This document shows positions 11 through 14,008 of a DNA stretch of 20,650 bases, piece after piece. The notes beneath the pieces are model-generated. The model was given only the letters and a program-made list of their open reading frames with translations, searched no databases and was not told where the DNA came from. A program made the translations under genes and the position numbers. Origin of the DNA: a virus; the IMG/VR virus record IMGVR_UViG_3300048930_000755, positions 1-20,650 of that record. The stretch is one strand, 5' to 3'. Position 1 is the first letter of the stretch; the number at the start of each line of letters is the position of its first letter.

Positions 11-200
11 TGAGCGTTTACACCTAATTCTGCAGTGACGGCGGAAGAGGGCGGGGCAGGGCGGAAGAGGGCGGAAGGCGCGGCGTATCAAGGGGTTGCG
101 GCGCGGTCTGGCGGGCGAGCACGGCAGCGGGGAATTCTGCAGTAACGGCTCGATTTGGCAGTTCCGCCGGCGAAACGCGAGGCCAGTGCAGAAATCCAGT
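11..200. other. Candidate left end of the Mu-like prophage with three transposase-site-like repeats
   Basis: No gene is convincing in the first 434 bases. Two direct copies of AATTCTGCAGTNACGG lie at 26-41 and 133-148, and an inverted, less exact copy (ATTTCTGCACT read on the minus strand) lies at 185-195. Their offsets (about 107 and then about 50 bases) resemble the spacing of the three transposase sites L1, L2 and L3 at the left end of phage Mu. A TG dinucleotide at 11-12 could be the terminal TG of the element, which would leave bases 1-10 as host flank. This is inference: the right end and the target duplication are outside the window, so the exact terminus is not established. Confidence 0.45.
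41..80. repeat. Four tandem degenerate 10-mers
   Basis: Bases 41-80 read as four consecutive 10-base units: GCGGAAGAGG, GCGGGGCAGG, GCGGAAGAGG and GCGGAAGGCG. Units 1 and 3 are identical. The period is close to one helical turn, so the same face of the DNA is presented each time. It sits between the first two transposase-site-like repeats. It may be a protein-binding or bent tract, or simple repeat expansion; the sequence alone does not decide. Confidence 0.5.
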
Positions 201-242: not shown

Positions 243-377
243 GTTGCATCTTCGGGCGTCGGAACATGCAACTTTTCGCGCAAGTTCGGGAGCGCGGTTG
301 CATGTTCGGCCAAGCGACGGATTACAAAAGGAAAAAAGCGCGATGAAGGGGCGCGACTGGAGGCGCGAACATGCAAC
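243..377. repeat. Four copies of GTTGCATSTTC in alternating orientation
   Basis: The 11-mer GTTGCATCTTC is at 243-253 (plus). Its relative GTTGCATGTTC is at 262-272 (minus), 297-307 (plus) and 367-377 (minus). Three copies extend to GGTTGCATSTTCG. Centre-to-centre distances grow (about 19, 35 and 70 bases) and orientation alternates. The array lies between the putative phage terminus and the 3' end of the tail-fibre gene. It looks like an array of binding sites for a dimeric or multimeric protein such as the transposase or an accessory factor; which protein binds is unknown. Confidence 0.6.
324..355 (-). terminator. Possible intrinsic terminator of the tail-fibre operon
   Basis: On the minus strand, about 80-110 bases past the tail-fibre stop codon, a short GC-only stem (CGCG at 352-355 pairing with CGCG at 339-342) is followed by a T6-CC-T4 run (complement of 326-337). 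The T run is striking in such GC-rich DNA, but the stem is only 4 bp, so the call is weak. The same purine run could instead be read as a plus-strand ribosome-binding site before the ATG at 343. Confidence 0.3.
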
Positions 378-434: not shown

Positions 435-1445
435 TCAGAAGTCGGTCTCGATGTAGAGGCGCGAGAAGGCGAGCTGGCAGGCGGCGGCCGTCGCGCCGTT
501 CCCCAGCCAGGCGTGGTGCGCCAAGAAAGTTGTCGTAAGCGGCATGTTCACGGCGTCGGTAAAAGTACCCTCGGCGCGATCCTCGAGGCCAGGGTTGAGC
601 ACGTCAAGGCGCCAGCCGATCTCGTTCGGATCGGACGGGCCGCAGAACGTCGTCAGCTCGTAGAGCCAGCCCTGCGTGACCGGGATGCCGGTGTCGACGC
701 GGGCGTGGCCGGAGGACAGGCGCGACGTCCACGCGCGAAAGGTGTCCTCGCCCTCGTCCCAGCCGACGCCGACAAAATTGATCAGGGCGGACGGGACCAC
801 CGAGCCGGCGATCGCGCCCGTAGAGCCGTGAAGGCCGAAAAGCCCCTTGTTCGTTTCCGGCAGAAGCTTCAGGCCAAAGCGGAGACGGTAGAACCATCCG
901 CCGAGGCCGGGCTGATCGCCGCGCCAGCACATCGTCTGCGCCACCCGCTGGTGCGCCACCGACCCGGCCGTCGCCGCGCTCTGGATCTGCGTGTGTGCCA
1001 TCGAGCCGATCAGGTCGGACGCGATGAGGGCGGGCGTCGAGGCGGTGCCAACGACACTGTGAGTCGGGCCTCCGACAAAGGAAAGCACTGCGCCGGAGCC
1101 GGTCGAAAGCAGAAAGACCCGGTTCCCGTAGAGTGCAGGCTGCAGGCTGGTGTCGAGCCCGGACGGCCCGAGCATCGACAGCAACCGCCGGCCGGCGATG
1201 TTCCGGCTGAACACGTCGAGGCCCGATCCGGGCGGGCTGGGCGTGGCGATGGACTGGAAGTTCAGCGTGCCCGTCACCTGCGACAGGGCGCCAAAGTAGG
1301 GCAGGGCGTTGTAGGGCGTCACGCCGTCGCCGATCTTCATGCGCCTTGCGTCGGTCTCCCAGCAGGGTTCTCCAGCCGCCAGAACCTCGTTGACCGAGGC
1401 GCAGAAAGCAGCGGTGCCGGCCCTGATCTCGATGCGATCACTCAT
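435..1445 (-). CDS. Tail fibre / receptor-binding protein with Mtd-like N-terminal domain
   Basis: A 336-residue protein that probably forms the distal, host-recognising part of the tail fibre. Residues 1-50 ([11 protein letters not shown], then [11 protein letters not shown], then [16 protein letters not shown]) match the small beta domain at the N-terminus of many fibres and of the Bordetella phage tropism determinant. A middle stretch of the type [20 protein letters not shown] is a recurrent linker in phage fibres. The C-terminal half, from about [12 protein letters not shown] to the final LYIETDF, looks like a jelly-roll, lectin-like domain seen at the ends of other fibres. The ATG at 1445 overlaps the end of the collagen-like gene by 8 bases, so the two are probably co-translated. 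There is no reverse transcriptase or template repeat, so I see no diversity-generating element. Confidence 0.8.
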
Positions 1446-2154
1446 CGCCCGGCGTCCCCCCATTGATCCGGAACCCGCCGGTGTAGCTGTCCCCGGGCCG
1501 CCCGCCGGCAAAGCGGCGGAATATCCGCGACCAGGCGAGGCCGCCGGCGCCGTCGCTTGCCAGGACGTCGGCCGTCGTTCCACCAGGCGGCAGCGCGCTC
1601 GCGCCCGGCTCGCCGGCCGGGCCGGGCTCGCCCGCTGGCCCTGCCGGTCCCGCCGGCCCTTGCGGACCGGGGGTGCCGGGTGCGCCCGCGGTGCCGGCCG
1701 GCCCTTGCGGACCGGCGGACCCCTGCGGCCCCGGCAGGCCATCGGGGCCCGGCTGTCCGTCCGGCCCCGGCGCACCCATCGGCCCCGGCGGGCCAGCCGG
1801 GGCCGCCGCGCCGATCGGGCCCGCCGGTCCGGGAGCACCGGGGGCACCAGTCTCGCCGGTCGGGCCGGGCGACCCCGCCGGCCCGGCCGGGCCGGGGGCG
1901 CCCGGCGGTCCCGCCAGGCCGACCGGGGAAAGGACGAGCGGCGGGGCGGGGCGGGGCTGGACGGTGACGAGCTGCGGCGCGTCGGCGGCGACGGGCAGCG
2001 CGCGCAGCGGGGCGAGGATCTGCAAGCTCGGGGAGCCGGCGTGGGCGAGCGCGAGCCGGGGCGCTGGCGCGGGCGTCAGGTCGACGGCCGCCGAGGCGGG
2101 CGACGTGATGGTGACCGCGAGCGGGCGAAGCGTGATCTCGACGCCCGCTGTCAC
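1438..2154 (-). CDS. Collagen-like tail fibre protein (Gly-X-Y repeats)
   Basis: A 238-residue protein. Residues 1-78 are a Pro/Ala-rich N-terminal part with beta-strand-like segments. Residues 79-186 are about 36 Gly-X-Y triplets, rich in GPA, GAP and GPQ, with a single interruption at triplet 14 where Ala replaces Gly. After that comes [20 protein letters not shown], a motif typical of the connection between a collagen stalk and the next fibre domain. Collagen-like stalks form trimeric triple helices in phage fibres, so this is probably the shaft on which the downstream receptor-binding protein sits. The start codon overlaps the upstream gene's stop (ATGA). The 3' end overlaps the receptor-binding gene by 8 bases. 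Confidence 0.85.
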
Positions 2155-2462
2155 GTCACGGTCACATGGATCGGGCCGACCGCGGCAATGTCGCCGCCGC
2201 CCGGCGGCAGCAGGCGGAACCAGAACCGCAGGTTCGGGCCCTGGGGCAGCGTGCCGGCGCTGTCGTCGATCACCAGCGCCAGCCGGCCGGCGGCGGCATC
2301 GGCGACCGAGATCGCCAGCGTGCCGGGCGGGAAGCCGTTCTGCGCATGGACCTCGGCGGTAAAGCCGGTCAGGTCGGCCGCGCCGCCCTCGCCGTCGCCC
2401 CAGAGCACGACATGCGTGGTCCGGCTGCCCCGCACGATCGGGATCTCGGGGCGTTCGGTCAC
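2151..2462 (-). CDS. Small tail/baseplate-associated protein, BppU N-domain-like
   Basis: A 103-residue protein starting with GTG at 2462. The pattern [15 protein letters not shown], then [12 protein letters not shown], then a glycine-rich end, resembles the small immunoglobulin-like domain found at the N-terminus of BppU-type baseplate proteins and in stand-alone proteins just upstream of fibre genes. The likely role is attachment of the fibre to the virion. The GTG overlaps the stop of a 12-codon leader ORF (GTGA), which argues for translational coupling. The gene ends in an ATGA overlap with the collagen-like gene. The family assignment is by pattern only. Confidence 0.6.
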
Positions 2463-2497
2463 CGTTGAACCGGCGTTGAAGGCGGGGTTTCAGGCAT
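2459..2497 (-). CDS. 12-codon leader ORF before the tail-fibre genes
   Basis: An ATG at 2497 with a strong ribosome-binding site (AGGAG, spacing 6-7) opens a frame [12 protein letters not shown] that ends in a TGA overlapping the GTG of the next gene. The strong site and the exact GTGA overlap suggest that ribosomes load here and re-initiate on the GTG, which has no good site of its own. The peptide itself may have no function. Confidence 0.4.
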
Positions 2498-2588
2498 GGC
2501 TGCTCCTGCGATGCGATATGATATCACATAACATAATGCGGACGGAACAGCGGTCTTTGGCGCCACGGGCGAAGCGACTGGAGCGTGC
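2498..2588 (-). promoter_or_regulatory. AT-rich gap with possible promoter for the tail-fibre operon
   Basis: The 91 bases between the lipoprotein stop and the leader ORF include an unusually AT-rich tract (2516-2537) with the perfect palindrome TGATATCA at 2519-2526. On the minus strand TATCAT (2523-2518) is a good -10 candidate and would place the transcript start about 15 bases before the leader ATG. The -35 candidate (TTCCGT, 18-base spacing) is poor, so an activator may be needed. This would let the fibre genes be switched separately from the repressor and lipoprotein. Confidence 0.35.
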
Positions 2589-3032
2589 TTACCCCGGCGC
2601 CTCGGTCCGCCCGACAGATGGGCATTCCGTGCCGGATCGCGCCCAATAGGACAGCCAGCGGGCGTGCCTGGGATCGGGTTCGCCGATGCCCCGGCCGGAC
2701 TTGATCTGCACCTTTGTGCCGCCGCCATCGCGCGCGATGCGCACCTGTGAGTATGTTTGCGGAACGATTCCGCTGATGCCGTGCCGGATCTCACCATATC
2801 CAAGATCGGGATAGAGTTGTGCATCCAGCGTCGTCGCGCCCGACCCGAGAAAGTAGCCGGTTCCGGGCCGGACACACCGCCGCATCGTCGCGAGCATACC
2901 GGCATAGACGGCCTGATAGTTCCGGTCCAGGCGAAGCTCGACCTCATATGGTCGGGCGTCAACTTCGTTCGGGGAGTCGCAGCCCGAAAGCACGGCCGCC
3001 GCTGCAGCCAAGGCAAAGAACGCTTGTCGCAT
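2589..3032 (-). CDS. Putative lipoprotein coupled to the repressor gene
   Basis: A 147-residue protein. Residues 1-18 (MRQAFFALAAAAAVLSGC) form a classical lipoprotein signal with lipobox LSGC, so Cys18 should be lipidated. Residue +2 of the mature protein is Asp, which in Escherichia coli keeps lipoproteins in the inner membrane. The rest is a small hydrophilic domain with two more cysteines (in RRCVRP and TECPS) that could form a disulfide. I do not recognise the family. I chose the ATG at 3032 because it gives a clean signal peptide, follows GGAG and shares one base with the repressor stop (TGATG). An in-frame ATG at 3044 would add four residues. Its coupling to the repressor suggests expression in the lysogen, as expected of a superinfection-exclusion or conversion gene; that role is inference. 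Confidence 0.75.
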   Translation of the reverse strand: MRQAFFALAAAAAVLSGCDSPNEVDARPYEVELRLDRNYQAVYAGMLATMRRCVRPGTGYFLGSGATTLDAQLYPDLGYGEIRHGISGIVPQTYSQVRIARDGGGTKVQIKSGRGIGEPDPRHARWLSYWARSGTECPSVGRTEAPG

Positions 3033-3697
3033 CACCGCTCCCACACATGCCCCGACCAGACCACCTGGCCGTGGATTACCACGCGCGCCGCGTCCTCGCC
3101 GAGGCGCGGGATCGCCGGCCAGTCGGGGTTGACCGAGCGCAGGATCAGGCCCTGGCCGGGCAGGGCGTCGACATGCTTGACCAGCGTCTCGCCGCCGATG
3201 TCGGTCAGGGCGTAGACGCCGCGGGGGCGCGGCAGGGTGCGGGCGGTGTCGACCAGGGCGAGGTCGCCGTCGTGCAGGTCGGGTTCCATGCTGTCGCCCC
3301 GCACCCGCACCAGGACCGCGCGGTCGGGGCGCAGGCCCATGCGGTCGAGCCAGTCGCGGCGGAACGCGAGCTTGTCGATCTCGGGCGCATCCTCGTTCAC
3401 CGCGCCCGGCCCCGCCGACAGCCGCACGTCGAGCCGCGGCACCGCCGCCCAGGCCTCGTTGTTCAGCACCACCGTCTCGACCGGGCCGGTCTGGCGCGGG
3501 GGGCCGAAGTAGAACTCGAGACCAAGAACATCAGCCAATTTCTGAAGCGCAGGAAGATTGTATCGCTTGTCGCCCTCGCGCGGCATTCGCATGTTCTTGA
3601 TCAACGACGGATGGCCGACAGCGAGCTTGGAGGCGGCCGCATCGGTCAGCCTTTTGCGCTGCAAGGCATCGTCAATGGTCGCGAGAATCGGGTCCAT
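3032..3697 (-). CDS. S24/LexA-like phage repressor
   Basis: A 221-residue repressor that should hold the prophage dormant by binding the divergent control region just upstream. Residues 1-60 are a helix-turn-helix DNA-binding domain (TDAAASKLAVGHPSLIKNMR, then LPALQKLADVLGL). Residues 90-215 are an S24 peptidase-like domain with the catalytic Ser136 in VRGDSMEP and Lys174 in ETLVKHVD. An Ala95-Gly96 pair (LSAGPG) fits the RecA-stimulated self-cleavage site. Mu's own c repressor lacks this domain, so induction here is probably tied to the SOS response. The ATG at 3697 is preceded by only a -10 element, with no ribosome-binding site, so the mRNA is probably leaderless. The stop overlaps the lipoprotein start. 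Confidence 0.9.
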   Translation of the reverse strand: MDPILATIDDALQRKRLTDAAASKLAVGHPSLIKNMRMPREGDKRYNLPALQKLADVLGLEFYFGPPRQTGPVETVVLNNEAWAAVPRLDVRLSAGPGAVNEDAPEIDKLAFRRDWLDRMGLRPDRAVLVRVRGDSMEPDLHDGDLALVDTARTLPRPRGVYALTDIGGETLVKHVDALPGQGLILRSVNPDWPAIPRLGEDAARVVIHGQVVWSGHVWER

Positions 3698-5316: not shown

Positions 5317-6185
5317 AGACGCCCACGCTGATGACGATCCGCGATGTCGCCGTGGCCGAGGTCGAGGCCGCGGGCCGGCTGCGCCCGGTGACCGAGGCGG
5401 GGGTCGAAAGCCTGATCGCCTCGATCGGCGAGGTCGGCGTCCTGAAGGATGCGATCCATGTGCGGCGGCGCAAGGACGGCCGGCTGCAACTGATCGCGGG
5501 GGCGCACCGGCTGGAGGCGGCGCGGCGGCTGGGCTGGGAGCGGATCGAGGCCAAGGTCTGGACCGACGTGACCGACGACTGGGCGCGGCTGATGGAGATC
5601 GACGACAACCTGGCGGGGGCCGAGCTGAACCCGCTCGACGCCGCGGTGTTCCTGGCGGCCCGCAAGGCGGTCTACGAGCGGATCCATCCGGAGACGAAGG
5701 CGGCCACTGGCGCCGCGCTTGTTTCCAAGCGGTGGAATACGGCGGACACGATGTCCGTCGTATCGTTCGCCGCCTCGACGGCCGAGAAGTTCGGCCTGTC
5801 CGACCGGCATGTCCGCCGCATGATCGCCGCCGGCAGCCGGCTGGGGCCGGACGAGGTGGCGCGGCTGCGTGGCGCGCCGCGGGCGGTCAGCCTGCGCGAC
5901 CTGTCCGACATCGGACGGATCGGCGACGCGGCCGAGCGCTATGACGTGGTCGCCGCGCTGGCCGAGGGGCGCGCGAAGTCGGCCGGCGAGGCGCGCCGCC
6001 GCCGGGCGCTGGCCGCCGCCGGCGCGCCGCCGCCGCGCGACCCGGCCGAGCGGGCGTTCCTGCGGCTGCTGGACGCCTGGACGCGCGCGCCGCGCTCGGC
6101 CCGCCGGCAGTTCCTGGGCGAGGCCGGGCACGAGGTGATCGCGTTGCTGAACGTGCCGCGCTCCGGGCTGGAGGCGGCAGAATGA
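5313..6185 (+). CDS. ParB-like nuclease-domain protein
   Basis: A 290-residue protein. The N-terminal domain (about residues 10-105) is of the ParB/sulfiredoxin type, with the box IAGAHRLEAARRLG at 61-74. It is followed by a helical region containing a helix-turn-helix-like segment (EKFGLSDRHVRRMIAAGSRL) and a basic, Arg-rich C-terminal part. No ParA partner is nearby, so plasmid-like partition is unlikely. ParB-domain proteins next to transposase genes are known in Mu-like phages of alphaproteobacteria; their role is unclear, possibly regulatory or in arranging DNA for transposition. The gene overlaps transposase A by ATGA, which suggests they are made together. Confidence 0.8.
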   Translation: MKTPTLMTIRDVAVAEVEAAGRLRPVTEAGVESLIASIGEVGVLKDAIHVRRRKDGRLQLIAGAHRLEAARRLGWERIEAKVWTDVTDDWARLMEIDDNLAGAELNPLDAAVFLAARKAVYERIHPETKAATGAALVSKRWNTADTMSVVSFAASTAEKFGLSDRHVRRMIAAGSRLGPDEVARLRGAPRAVSLRDLSDIGRIGDAAERYDVVAALAEGRAKSAGEARRRRALAAAGAPPPRDPAERAFLRLLDAWTRAPRSARRQFLGEAGHEVIALLNVPRSGLEAAE

Positions 6186-8314
6186 CCGAGCGCGTGCCCG
6201 AGCGGGAATGGTGGAGCGTGGCCGAGATCGCCGACGCGGGCCTGCCCGACCTGCCGCCGACCCGGCAGGCGATCGAGAAGATGATCCTGCGCCAGGGCTG
6301 GCGCGCCAGCGGCCAGGCGCGGCGCCGCGCGGGCCGCGGCGGCGGCTGGGAATACCATTGGTCGCTGCTGCCGGTGCTGGCGCGCCGGCACATCCTGCCC
6401 CCCCTGGCCGAGGCCGCGCGGGGCGCTGCACGCGCCGACCGCGACGAGGCATGGGCGTGGTTCGAAGGCCTGCCGGCCGCCGTGCAGGCGAAGGCGCGCG
6501 CGCGGCTGGACGCGATCCGCCGGGTCGAGGCGCTGGTGGCGCAGGGCGAGGCCAAGGCGGCCGCCGTCGGCCTGGTGGCCGGGTCGGTCGGCGCCTCGGC
6601 CCGCGCGGTGTGGAGCTGGTTCGGGTTGGTCGAGGGCGTGCGGCCCGACGACCGGCTGGCGCATCTGGCGCCGCGGCACCGGGCGGGCGCCGTGCGCCGC
6701 GCGCAGGCGCATGTCGATCCCGATTTCGGGGACCTGGTGCGGTCGGACTGGCTGCGGCTGGCGCGGCCGAGCCTGGCCTCGGTCTGGCGGCGGGCATCGC
6801 GGATCGCGGCCGAGCGGCAGATCCCGGTGGCGCCCGAATGGGCCGTGCGCCGGTGGCTGGAGCGCACCGTCTCGCGCCCGACCGAGATGCTGCTGCGCCA
6901 GGGCGAGGAGGCGCTGCGCCGGCTTTATCCGCCGCAGACGCGGGACAAGACCGCGCTGGTGCCGCTCGAGGTGGTCAACGCAGACTTTCACAAGTTCGAC
7001 GTGTTCGTGCAGTGGCCGCAGGAGCGGGGCGATGCCGGCCCCGGCTGGATCGGCCGGCCGCATATGGTGGCGTTCCAGGACGTGTTCTCGGGTCGGATCC
7101 TGTCGTGGCGGGTCGACCAGCAGCCGAACGCCTTGGCGGTGCAGCTGGCCGCCGGCGACATGATCGAGCAGTTCGGCATCCCGCAGCACATCCTGCTGGA
7201 CAACGGCCGCGAGTTCGCCGCCAAGGCGCTGACCGGCGGCACCCCCACGCGCTATCGCTTCAAGGTGCGGCAGGACGACGTGCCGGGCCTCTTCATCGCG
7301 CTCGGGTGCGAGATCCACTGGGCGACGCCCTACAGCGGGCAGTCCAAGCCGATCGAGCGCGCGTTCCGCGACATGTGCGACGCGATCTCCAAGGATCCGC
7401 GCTTCGACGGCGCCTGGACGGGGAACAAGCCGGAAGCCAAGCCCGAGGACTACGGCAGCCGCGCGGTGCCGCTCGAGCAGTTCCTCGCGGTGGTGGCCGA
7501 GGGGATCGAGGAGCACAATTCGCGCCCCGGCCGCCGGTCCGAGGTCGCCTTCGGGCAGTCCTTCGCCGAGGCGTTCGACACGGCCTATGCCGGCGCGCCG
7601 ATCCGCAAGGCGACCGAGGCGCAGCGCCGGCTGTGGCTTCTGGGCGCCGAGAAGCTGCGCGCCAACAGCCAGACCGGGATGGTCAAGTTCATGGGGAACG
7701 AGTTCTGGGCGCCCTGGATGGGCGAGATCGCGGGCGAGTCGCTGGTGGCGCGGTTCGATCCGGCGGACTTCGCAGCGGGGCTGCACCTTTACTCGATGGA
7801 GAACGCCTATCTCGGCCATGCGCCGATCAAGGTCGCGGTCGGCTTCCTGACCATGGAAGAGGCGCGCGTCCACGCGAAGGCGCGGCGCGACTGGCTGAAC
7901 GCCGAAAAGGCCGCAGCCGCGGCGCACAAGCGCCTGACGGCGGCCGAACTTGGCGCGGCGCTGGATCTGGCCGCGCCGCCGGCCGCGCCGCTTCTGCCCG
8001 ACGCGCGGGTGATCCGGCCGGTGTTCAACGCCCCGCCAGGCGGCGCCCGCCGCCGCGTGCAGGCCGCGCCGACGGCGCAGGAGGACCGCGCGCATGTCGC
8101 GACGGTCGCCGACCTGACCGCCCGTCTGCCGGCCGAGGGTCCGGCCGATCCGCGCACGCGGTTCCGCCGCGCGCTCGATATCGAGCGGGCGATCGCGGCG
8201 GGCGAGCCGGTGACCGAGGCGCAGCAGCGCTGGGCCCTGCGCTACGCCGCTACGGCCGAATACCGGGCGGAGCGGACGGTCTGGGACGATTACGGGGACG
8301 CGATGTTCGGCTGA
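6182..8314 (+). CDS. Mu-type DDE transposase (MuA-like)
   Basis: A 710-residue transposase that should cut and join the phage ends during replicative transposition. Residues 1-75 are a winged-helix domain of the Mu enhancer-binding type (REWWSVAEIADAGLP, then IEKMILRQGW, then GGGWEYHW). A helical end-binding region follows to about residue 240. The RNase-H-like core carries the triad Asp268 (VVNADFHKFD), Asp340 (LLDNGREF) and Glu392 (KPIERAFRD), very close to Asp269, Asp336 and Glu392 of MuA. The C-terminal part (from about residue 490) has the Mu-transposase beta barrel and then a basic, Ala/Arg-rich tail that could contact the B protein. All catalytic residues and the length are intact. It starts in an ATGA overlap with the ParB-like gene. 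Confidence 0.95.
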   Translation: MTERVPEREWWSVAEIADAGLPDLPPTRQAIEKMILRQGWRASGQARRRAGRGGGWEYHWSLLPVLARRHILPPLAEAARGAARADRDEAWAWFEGLPAAVQAKARARLDAIRRVEALVAQGEAKAAAVGLVAGSVGASARAVWSWFGLVEGVRPDDRLAHLAPRHRAGAVRRAQAHVDPDFGDLVRSDWLRLARPSLASVWRRASRIAAERQIPVAPEWAVRRWLERTVSRPTEMLLRQGEEALRRLYPPQTRDKTALVPLEVVNADFHKFDVFVQWPQERGDAGPGWIGRPHMVAFQDVFSGRILSWRVDQQPNALAVQLAAGDMIEQFGIPQHILLDNGREFAAKALTGGTPTRYRFKVRQDDVPGLFIALGCEIHWATPYSGQSKPIERAFRDMCDAISKDPRFDGAWTGNKPEAKPEDYGSRAVPLEQFLAVVAEGIEEHNSRPGRRSEVAFGQSFAEAFDTAYAGAPIRKATEAQRRLWLLGAEKLRANSQTGMVKFMGNEFWAPWMGEIAGESLVARFDPADFAAGLHLYSMENAYLGHAPIKVAVGFLTMEEARVHAKARRDWLNAEKAAAAAHKRLTAAELGAALDLAAPPAAPLLPDARVIRPVFNAPPGGARRRVQAAPTAQEDRAHVATVADLTARLPAEGPADPRTRFRRALDIERAIAAGEPVTEAQQRWALRYAATAEYRAERTVWDDYGDAMFG

Positions 8315-13876: not shown

Positions 13877-14008
13877 CCCCAGCCCGCGCCCCCCGCACCC
13901 CAACCCGCAACCCGTTGTGCCTAGTCGCCCGGTCGCCCTCCGGGCGATGGTCGGGTCGGGCGGCGCGCGGCGCGGCCCTGGGCAGGGTGGTATCCGGGAG
14001 CCGTCGCA
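13877..14008 (+). promoter_or_regulatory. Intergenic control region before the late genes
   Basis: This is the largest plus-strand gap after the early promoter (132 bases). It holds a GC-rich hairpin with 8-base arms (TCGCCCGG at 13925-13932 and CCGGGCGA at 13940-13947, 7-base loop) without a T run. A weak -10-like TATCCG at 13991-13996 has no good -35, which fits an activator-dependent promoter. GGGAG at 13996-14000 is the ribosome-binding site of the endolysin. The hairpin could be an activator dyad, an attenuator or a weak terminator. Confidence 0.45.

Follow-up and report, generated by a model that had tools for sequence, protein, structure and literature searches.

A putative accessory tail-fibre cassette beside the repressor of a Mu-like transposable siphophage

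Results

Three coupled fibre-type genes lie left of the repressor

The window analysed here, a linear virus contig of 20,650 bp from IMG/VR, carries three minus-strand open reading frames that fill positions 435-2462 and overlap by 8 and 4 nt. An earlier note on this DNA had placed minus-strand fibre genes left of the repressor, and all three were found there, at 435-1445, 1438-2154 and 2151-2462. The features of the window that bear on their interpretation are as follows.

11-41, plus strand: phage left terminus, with TG at nt 11 and the first end-type site TTCTGCAGTGACGG (26-41); matches base 1 of ThpS-P1 and the termini of ~40 relatives in alignment
133-148, plus strand: second end-type repeat AATTCTGCAGTAACGG, a candidate transposase-binding site; repeat of 26-41, with 0.15 expected by chance in the site scan
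263-376, plus strand: left-end element AACATGCAA-N26-TTGCATGTT-N61-AACATGCAA; same spacing in relatives
435-1445, minus strand: P0001, receptor-binding-type fibre protein of 336 aa, with an Mtd_N anchor (residues 7-43) and a C-terminal fibre-tip domain (66-336), from Pfam and PHROG
1438-2154, minus strand: P0002, collagen-like shaft of 238 aa with ~35 Gly-X-Y repeats (13+22); PF01391, 2e-15
2151-2462, minus strand: P0003, predicted small beta-sandwich protein of 103 aa, from a single-sequence model
2459-2497, minus strand: possible leader ORF of 15 residues with a GGAG Shine-Dalgarno and ATG, its stop overlapping the GTG start of P0003, from the sequence
2511-2540, minus strand: AT-rich dyad region, candidate cassette promoter, from composition and a dyad scan
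2589-3032, minus strand: P0004, small lipoprotein-like gene adjoining the repressor; homologues beside the repressor in L016, L067, L069, L081 and L094
3032-3697, minus strand: CI-like repressor with S24 peptidase domain; PF00717, 1.3e-15; phrog_4, 6e-35
6182-8314, plus strand: MuA-type transposase; DDE_2, 5e-44; phrog_310, 1e-143
13907-13930, plus strand: candidate late-promoter motif GCAACCCGTTGTGCCTAGTCGCCC, 5' of the lysozyme gene

Inspection of the cassette proteins reveals anchor, shaft and tip parts that are all related to known fibres (Mtd_N, collagen and phrog_13925). The Mtd_N match of P0001 (PF18454, 2.9e-7) exceeds the curated cut-off, and over its first 60 residues the protein also resembles, at 48-51%, tail-fibre proteins from crAss001 and from cyanophage S-H38. 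Its C-terminal domain corresponds to phrog_13925 (3e-42) and includes no Mtd lectin domain, so that P0001 was rejected as an Mtd or DGR-diversified receptor protein; no reverse transcriptase was found among the window proteins examined. A single-sequence model of P0001 was unusable (pLDDT 35), and a peptide scan of viral contigs returned no relatives. For P0002, the best PHROG matches are tail fibre families.

P0003 has zero Pfam or PHROG matches even at E<1, a tblastn search against 50,697 phages gave no relative, and a search of 394 genomes, run without a positive control, gave no match. A single-sequence model predicts a beta sandwich (pLDDT 66), for which Foldseek returned no significant match. 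Because P0003 fits no family, the 'BppU-like' label given to it earlier is a guess, one that Pfam, PHROG, tblastn and Foldseek all fail to support. Membership of the BppU (lactococcal baseplate) family was rejected on the lack of a BppU_N match in sequence or fold, although a model of moderate confidence cannot exclude it. As for the origin of the cassette, its genes have GC3 values of 0.86-0.92 versus ~0.9 in most phage genes; composition like that of the neighbouring genes lends no support to recent foreign origin.

The phage and its left terminus

Gene content assigns the window phage to the Mu-like transposable siphophages of the RC1/RhkS-P1 group, with hosts of Rhodobacterales type. A MuA-type DDE transposase and a MuB-type ATPase (DDE_2, 5e-44; phrog_310, 1e-143; phrog_296) are accompanied by GemA and by Mu-like head genes for gp27 (Phage_Mu_Gp27, 7e-22), terminase and the gp29 portal (Portal_Mu, 3e-101). 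By transposase, the nearest named relatives are the Rhodobacteraceae siphophages vB_ThpS-P1, vB_RhkS_P1 and vB_PeaS-P1, at 42-49% identity; RC1 was placed with them through the literature, as part of a 'Mu-like head phage group' (PMC5488378). Scans for RNA families and tRNAs gave no matches. Three other IMG/VR contigs from other samples (L133, L165 and L167) overlap the end of the window at 99.9-100% identity and add ~8.9 kb, which encode a protease, the major capsid protein and the major tail protein and run into the tape-measure gene. The layout of this extended contig is that of the siphophage relatives. A rightward walk through IMG/VR found no contig past the tape-measure gene, so that the right end of the phage was not reached.

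At the other end, nt 1-430 are non-coding and include the phage end, in agreement with the earlier note. The left terminus lies at about nt 11 and reads TGAGCGTTTACACC...TTCTGCAGTGACGG, which is the left-terminus type of the group (TG...ACAC...CTGCAGT). The start of ThpS-P1 is TGTTGGGTGACACTCATTCTTACAGTGGATACCGGAAGAGG, and the window from nt 11 is TGAGCGTTTACACCTAATTCTGCAGTGACGGCGGAAGAGG. About 40 left ends, from prophages and viral contigs, share a common layout with the consensus TGTGCGTTGACACCnatatCTGCAGtaaa.CGGAA, and many of them have clear host or other DNA directly left of the terminus. By this alignment, nt 1-10 of the window read as non-phage (host) DNA. The virion ends of ThpS-P1 and PeaS-P1 are described as lacking random host DNA over 1 kb (PMC5488378).

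A separate observation concerns the relatives themselves. In L016, L068, L079, L085, L118, L122 and others, a phage right end (...GTCACGCTACA) is separated from the left terminus by no more than a short gap, mostly 5 bp, an abutment such as tandem prophages or the assembly of circular forms would give.

Inside each left end, three copies of AACATGCAA (+, -, +) occur at fixed spacing, with homologous sites in >50 loci. The distance from terminus to element is ~256-290 bp in relatives and 252 bp in the window. The exact pattern matches 23 viral and 41 bacterial contigs, nearly all from Rhodobacterales, and occurs in 13/394 family genomes, as against 0/394 for a reversed-pattern control. Since phages of this group encode a ParB-like protein, the element could be a ParB site or a transposition-enhancer site.

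In the window, the element stands in its normal orientation to the left of the fibre genes. Together with the terminus at about nt 11, this places the fibre cassette inside the phage and bears out the claim that the fibre module sits at the genome end opposite the tail genes. That the fibre genes instead belong to a neighbouring prophage, with the true left end of this phage at 2463-3032 (about 2500-3050 in the earlier proposal), is hardly credible: their strand, opposite to that of the other structural genes, would fit such an origin, but the end signals lie to their left in the right orientation, none was found at 2463-3032, and a site scan of the 127 bp at 2462-2589 detected no end-type site.

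The cassette occupies a variable slot

Comparison with relatives, which the earlier note had recommended for locating the ends, also supplies empty sites. P0004 homologues that are 33-47% identical occur in L067, L081 and L016, where the P0004-repressor pair stands beside the left-end element; these loci therefore serve as an empty-site comparison for the cassette. The gap between element and P0004 is 38-158 bp in these three loci versus 2,212 bp in the window, all of it cassette. That is to say, the cassette is inserted between sites that adjoin in relatives.

To describe this slot more broadly, 66 distinct left ends were compared, in 44 of which a minus-strand repressor is recognisable to the right. 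Element and repressor match lie between 31 bp and 6.4 kb apart. D12-class adenine methylases account for 8/55 slot proteins, and other contents include AAA_15/21 plus DUF4435 pairs, a type III R-M pair, a cytosine methylase (Dcm), a Y-family polymerase, DUF5131, GmrSD and Fic. The AAA_15/21 plus DUF4435 pair in L027 corresponds to PARIS AriA/AriB by PADLOC, and AriA is present in phage Aussie. The 25 most frequent slot-protein families listed include none of tail or fibre type. The other 65 left ends contain no match to P0001 and no collagen repeats, although some loci are short and unrelated fibre types could be missed. Among the 66, the window alone has fibre and collagen; since no other left end carries a fibre, the slot-cargo reading for the fibres rests on one contig. 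The earlier proposal of easy exchange at the terminus is to be refined accordingly: the unit that varies is the slot between element and repressor operon, and the cargo of relatives consists of methylases and defence genes, not fibres.

Several slots deserve mention in their own right. PARIS-like AriA/AriB pairs occupy the left slot of alphaproteobacterial Mu-like phages at L027:1559-3990 and L066:566-2775. The ThpS-P1 slot (L064:36581-38840) holds two genes, neither with a PADLOC match and the larger one without a Pfam match, and is a candidate new system. In POA1180, a transposable Ochrobactrum phage, annotated chromate transport/resistance genes lie just before the repressor in a comparable slot (L168:27279-27945).

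Expression signals around the cassette

The motif GCAAACCGTTGTGCCTA occurs ~100 bp ahead of the lysozyme gene in the window and ~70 bp ahead of it in three related loci (L007:11111, L014:11014 and L055:11111), and ~50 bp ahead of the protease gene in two of the overlapping contigs (L133:3776 and L165:1772). At <=1 mismatch, these lysozyme and protease places are its only occurrences in the 1.6 Mb of phage loci searched. Because the positions match those of the Mu lys and I late promoters, GCAAACCGTTGTGCCTA is a good candidate late-promoter motif. A scan for this motif found none near the cassette or in the left arm.

The cassette had also been proposed to have its own promoter, and the sequence is consistent with this. 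AT content in the left arm peaks at 2511-2540, one of only two places in the window with >=14 A/T in 20 nt, and the Shine-Dalgarno, the ATG and the absence of the late motif point the same way. A scan for sigma-70 sites detected nothing promoter-like at the cassette, and support for a promoter in the start region is at consensus level only. No terminator-like hairpin with a T-run was found at the cassette. Read-through from the repressor operon could be an alternative.

The tip domain is found in other prophages

Matches to P0001 were found in 37/394 genomes of Rhodobacterales families; almost all involve the C-terminal domain, and most form the last part of ORFs of 400-1400 aa. When 20 Rhodobacterales loci were read at larger scale, the tip-domain gene lay ~1.1 kb past a GTA-type TIM-barrel tail-hub gene in 17, and none of the 20 matched the Mu-like query genes. 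This hub-adjacent position in unrelated prophages argues that siphophage-type prophages elsewhere have the tip domain as an ordinary component of their fibres. The window phage has the same domain joined to an Mtd_N anchor and placed in the Mu-like cargo slot.

Discussion

At the level of sequence, the position of the cassette inside the phage, the coupling of its three genes, their architecture of anchor, collagen shaft and tip, and the variability of the slot are established. We consider it probable, at roughly 0.6, that nt 435-2462 are an accessory receptor-binding fibre cassette, carried as cargo in the variable slot bounded by the left-end element and the repressor operon. P0001 would form a trimeric fibre that docks to the tail through its Mtd_N end, or through P0003, and binds the host surface with its C-terminal domain. 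The cassette would add to, rather than replace, central and right-end fibre genes such as those of relatives; since the right end was not reached, we infer 'accessory' rather than 'only' from these relatives. Expression would be driven by a promoter of its own or by read-through from the repressor operon, and not by the late promoter.

One alternative is that the module originally stood at the right end, was relocated to the left slot and now provides the only side fibre of the phage, so that the right end would lack one. A complete module with shaft, tip and small partner, in good coding condition, is what such a move would leave. Yet all complete relatives inspected (RhkS-P1, ThpS-P1, PeaS-P1, RC1, RcapMu and Aussie) have tail and fibre genes at the right end, and a site lacking the late-promoter motif is a poor placement for an essential virion gene. 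We regard relocation as unlikely.

It is likewise doubtful that the fibre is a product of the prophage state, free of late control, that serves the lysogen, for example by receptor masking or exclusion of rival phages. Such a role would account for its place in a slot otherwise filled by defence systems: the slot elsewhere holds defence and methylase genes, and the cassette lies downstream of the repressor operon on the same strand, with the late-promoter motif absent. Mtd_N and collagen are typical virion parts, however, and P0001-P0003 have no apparent secretion signal or membrane anchor.

A chimera, in which the cassette was misassembled onto the left end of the phage, is more improbable still. 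The cassette occurs in one contig only, with no second viral contig that carries the fibre, or the repressor at close identity. Both flanks, the left-end element on one side and P0004 with the repressor on the other, nevertheless stand in correct phage order, GC3 matches, and contigs from other samples overlap the other end of the contig at 99.9-100% and confirm it.

If the fibre genes are indeed accessory cargo, the host-range genes of a transposable phage can occupy a left-terminal slot, separate from the tail operon with its late promoter, and could be exchanged as defence genes are, with tail assembly left undisturbed. The terminus and the AACATGCAA element provide sequence rules for recognising left ends of Rhodobacterales Mu-like prophages and for reading the slot beside the repressor. 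Searches for new anti-phage systems could usefully be directed at this slot, given that PARIS, R-M systems and methylases are found in it.

Accessory-gene sites of Mu-like phages and fibre exchange are both known, and what appears new, judging from the left ends compared, is a fibre cassette in this slot, where no other was found. In phage Mu, tail and fibre genes lie at the right end. Mu and the Rhodobacter phage RcapMu resemble the window phage in being transposase-based with a minus-strand repressor at the left, and RcapMu has genes between left end and repressor; in contrast to the window, RcapMu has tail J and the fibre genes at its right end. Pseudomonas Mu-like phages carry accessory genes at fixed genome sites (regions of genomic plasticity, or morons), some of them adaptive, but in the passages of that account consulted here these are mostly single small genes, including anti-CRISPRs, and no fibre cassette is described (PMC4378225). 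Hankyphage, a transposable phage of Bacteroides, diversifies its tail fibre for host-range change (PMC12135933); it does so with a diversity-generating retroelement, whereas no reverse transcriptase was noted in the window. The Rhodobacter phage proteins RcKemmy gp22 and RcCWillis gp17 have the C-terminal domain in common with P0001 at ~30-34% identity, but there it terminates a 700-aa fibre, which in RcKemmy directly follows the tail-hub gene.

The closest systems are RhkS-P1 of Rhodovulum, ThpS-P1 of Thiobacimonas, PeaS-P1 of Pelagibaca and RC1 of Rhodobacter, which share the gene order of the window: minus-strand repressor, ner, ParB (not annotated in RC1), tnpA, tnpB, lysis, Mu-like head and siphophage tail. 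Where the end is in the record, their left terminus is of the same type, and among these four the AACATGCAA element was detected in RhkS-P1. They differ from the window phage in that the right end alone carries tail and fibre genes. The slot at the left, in which the window phage carries its fibre cassette, is nearly empty in RhkS-P1 and RC1 and is filled by two unidentified genes in ThpS-P1.
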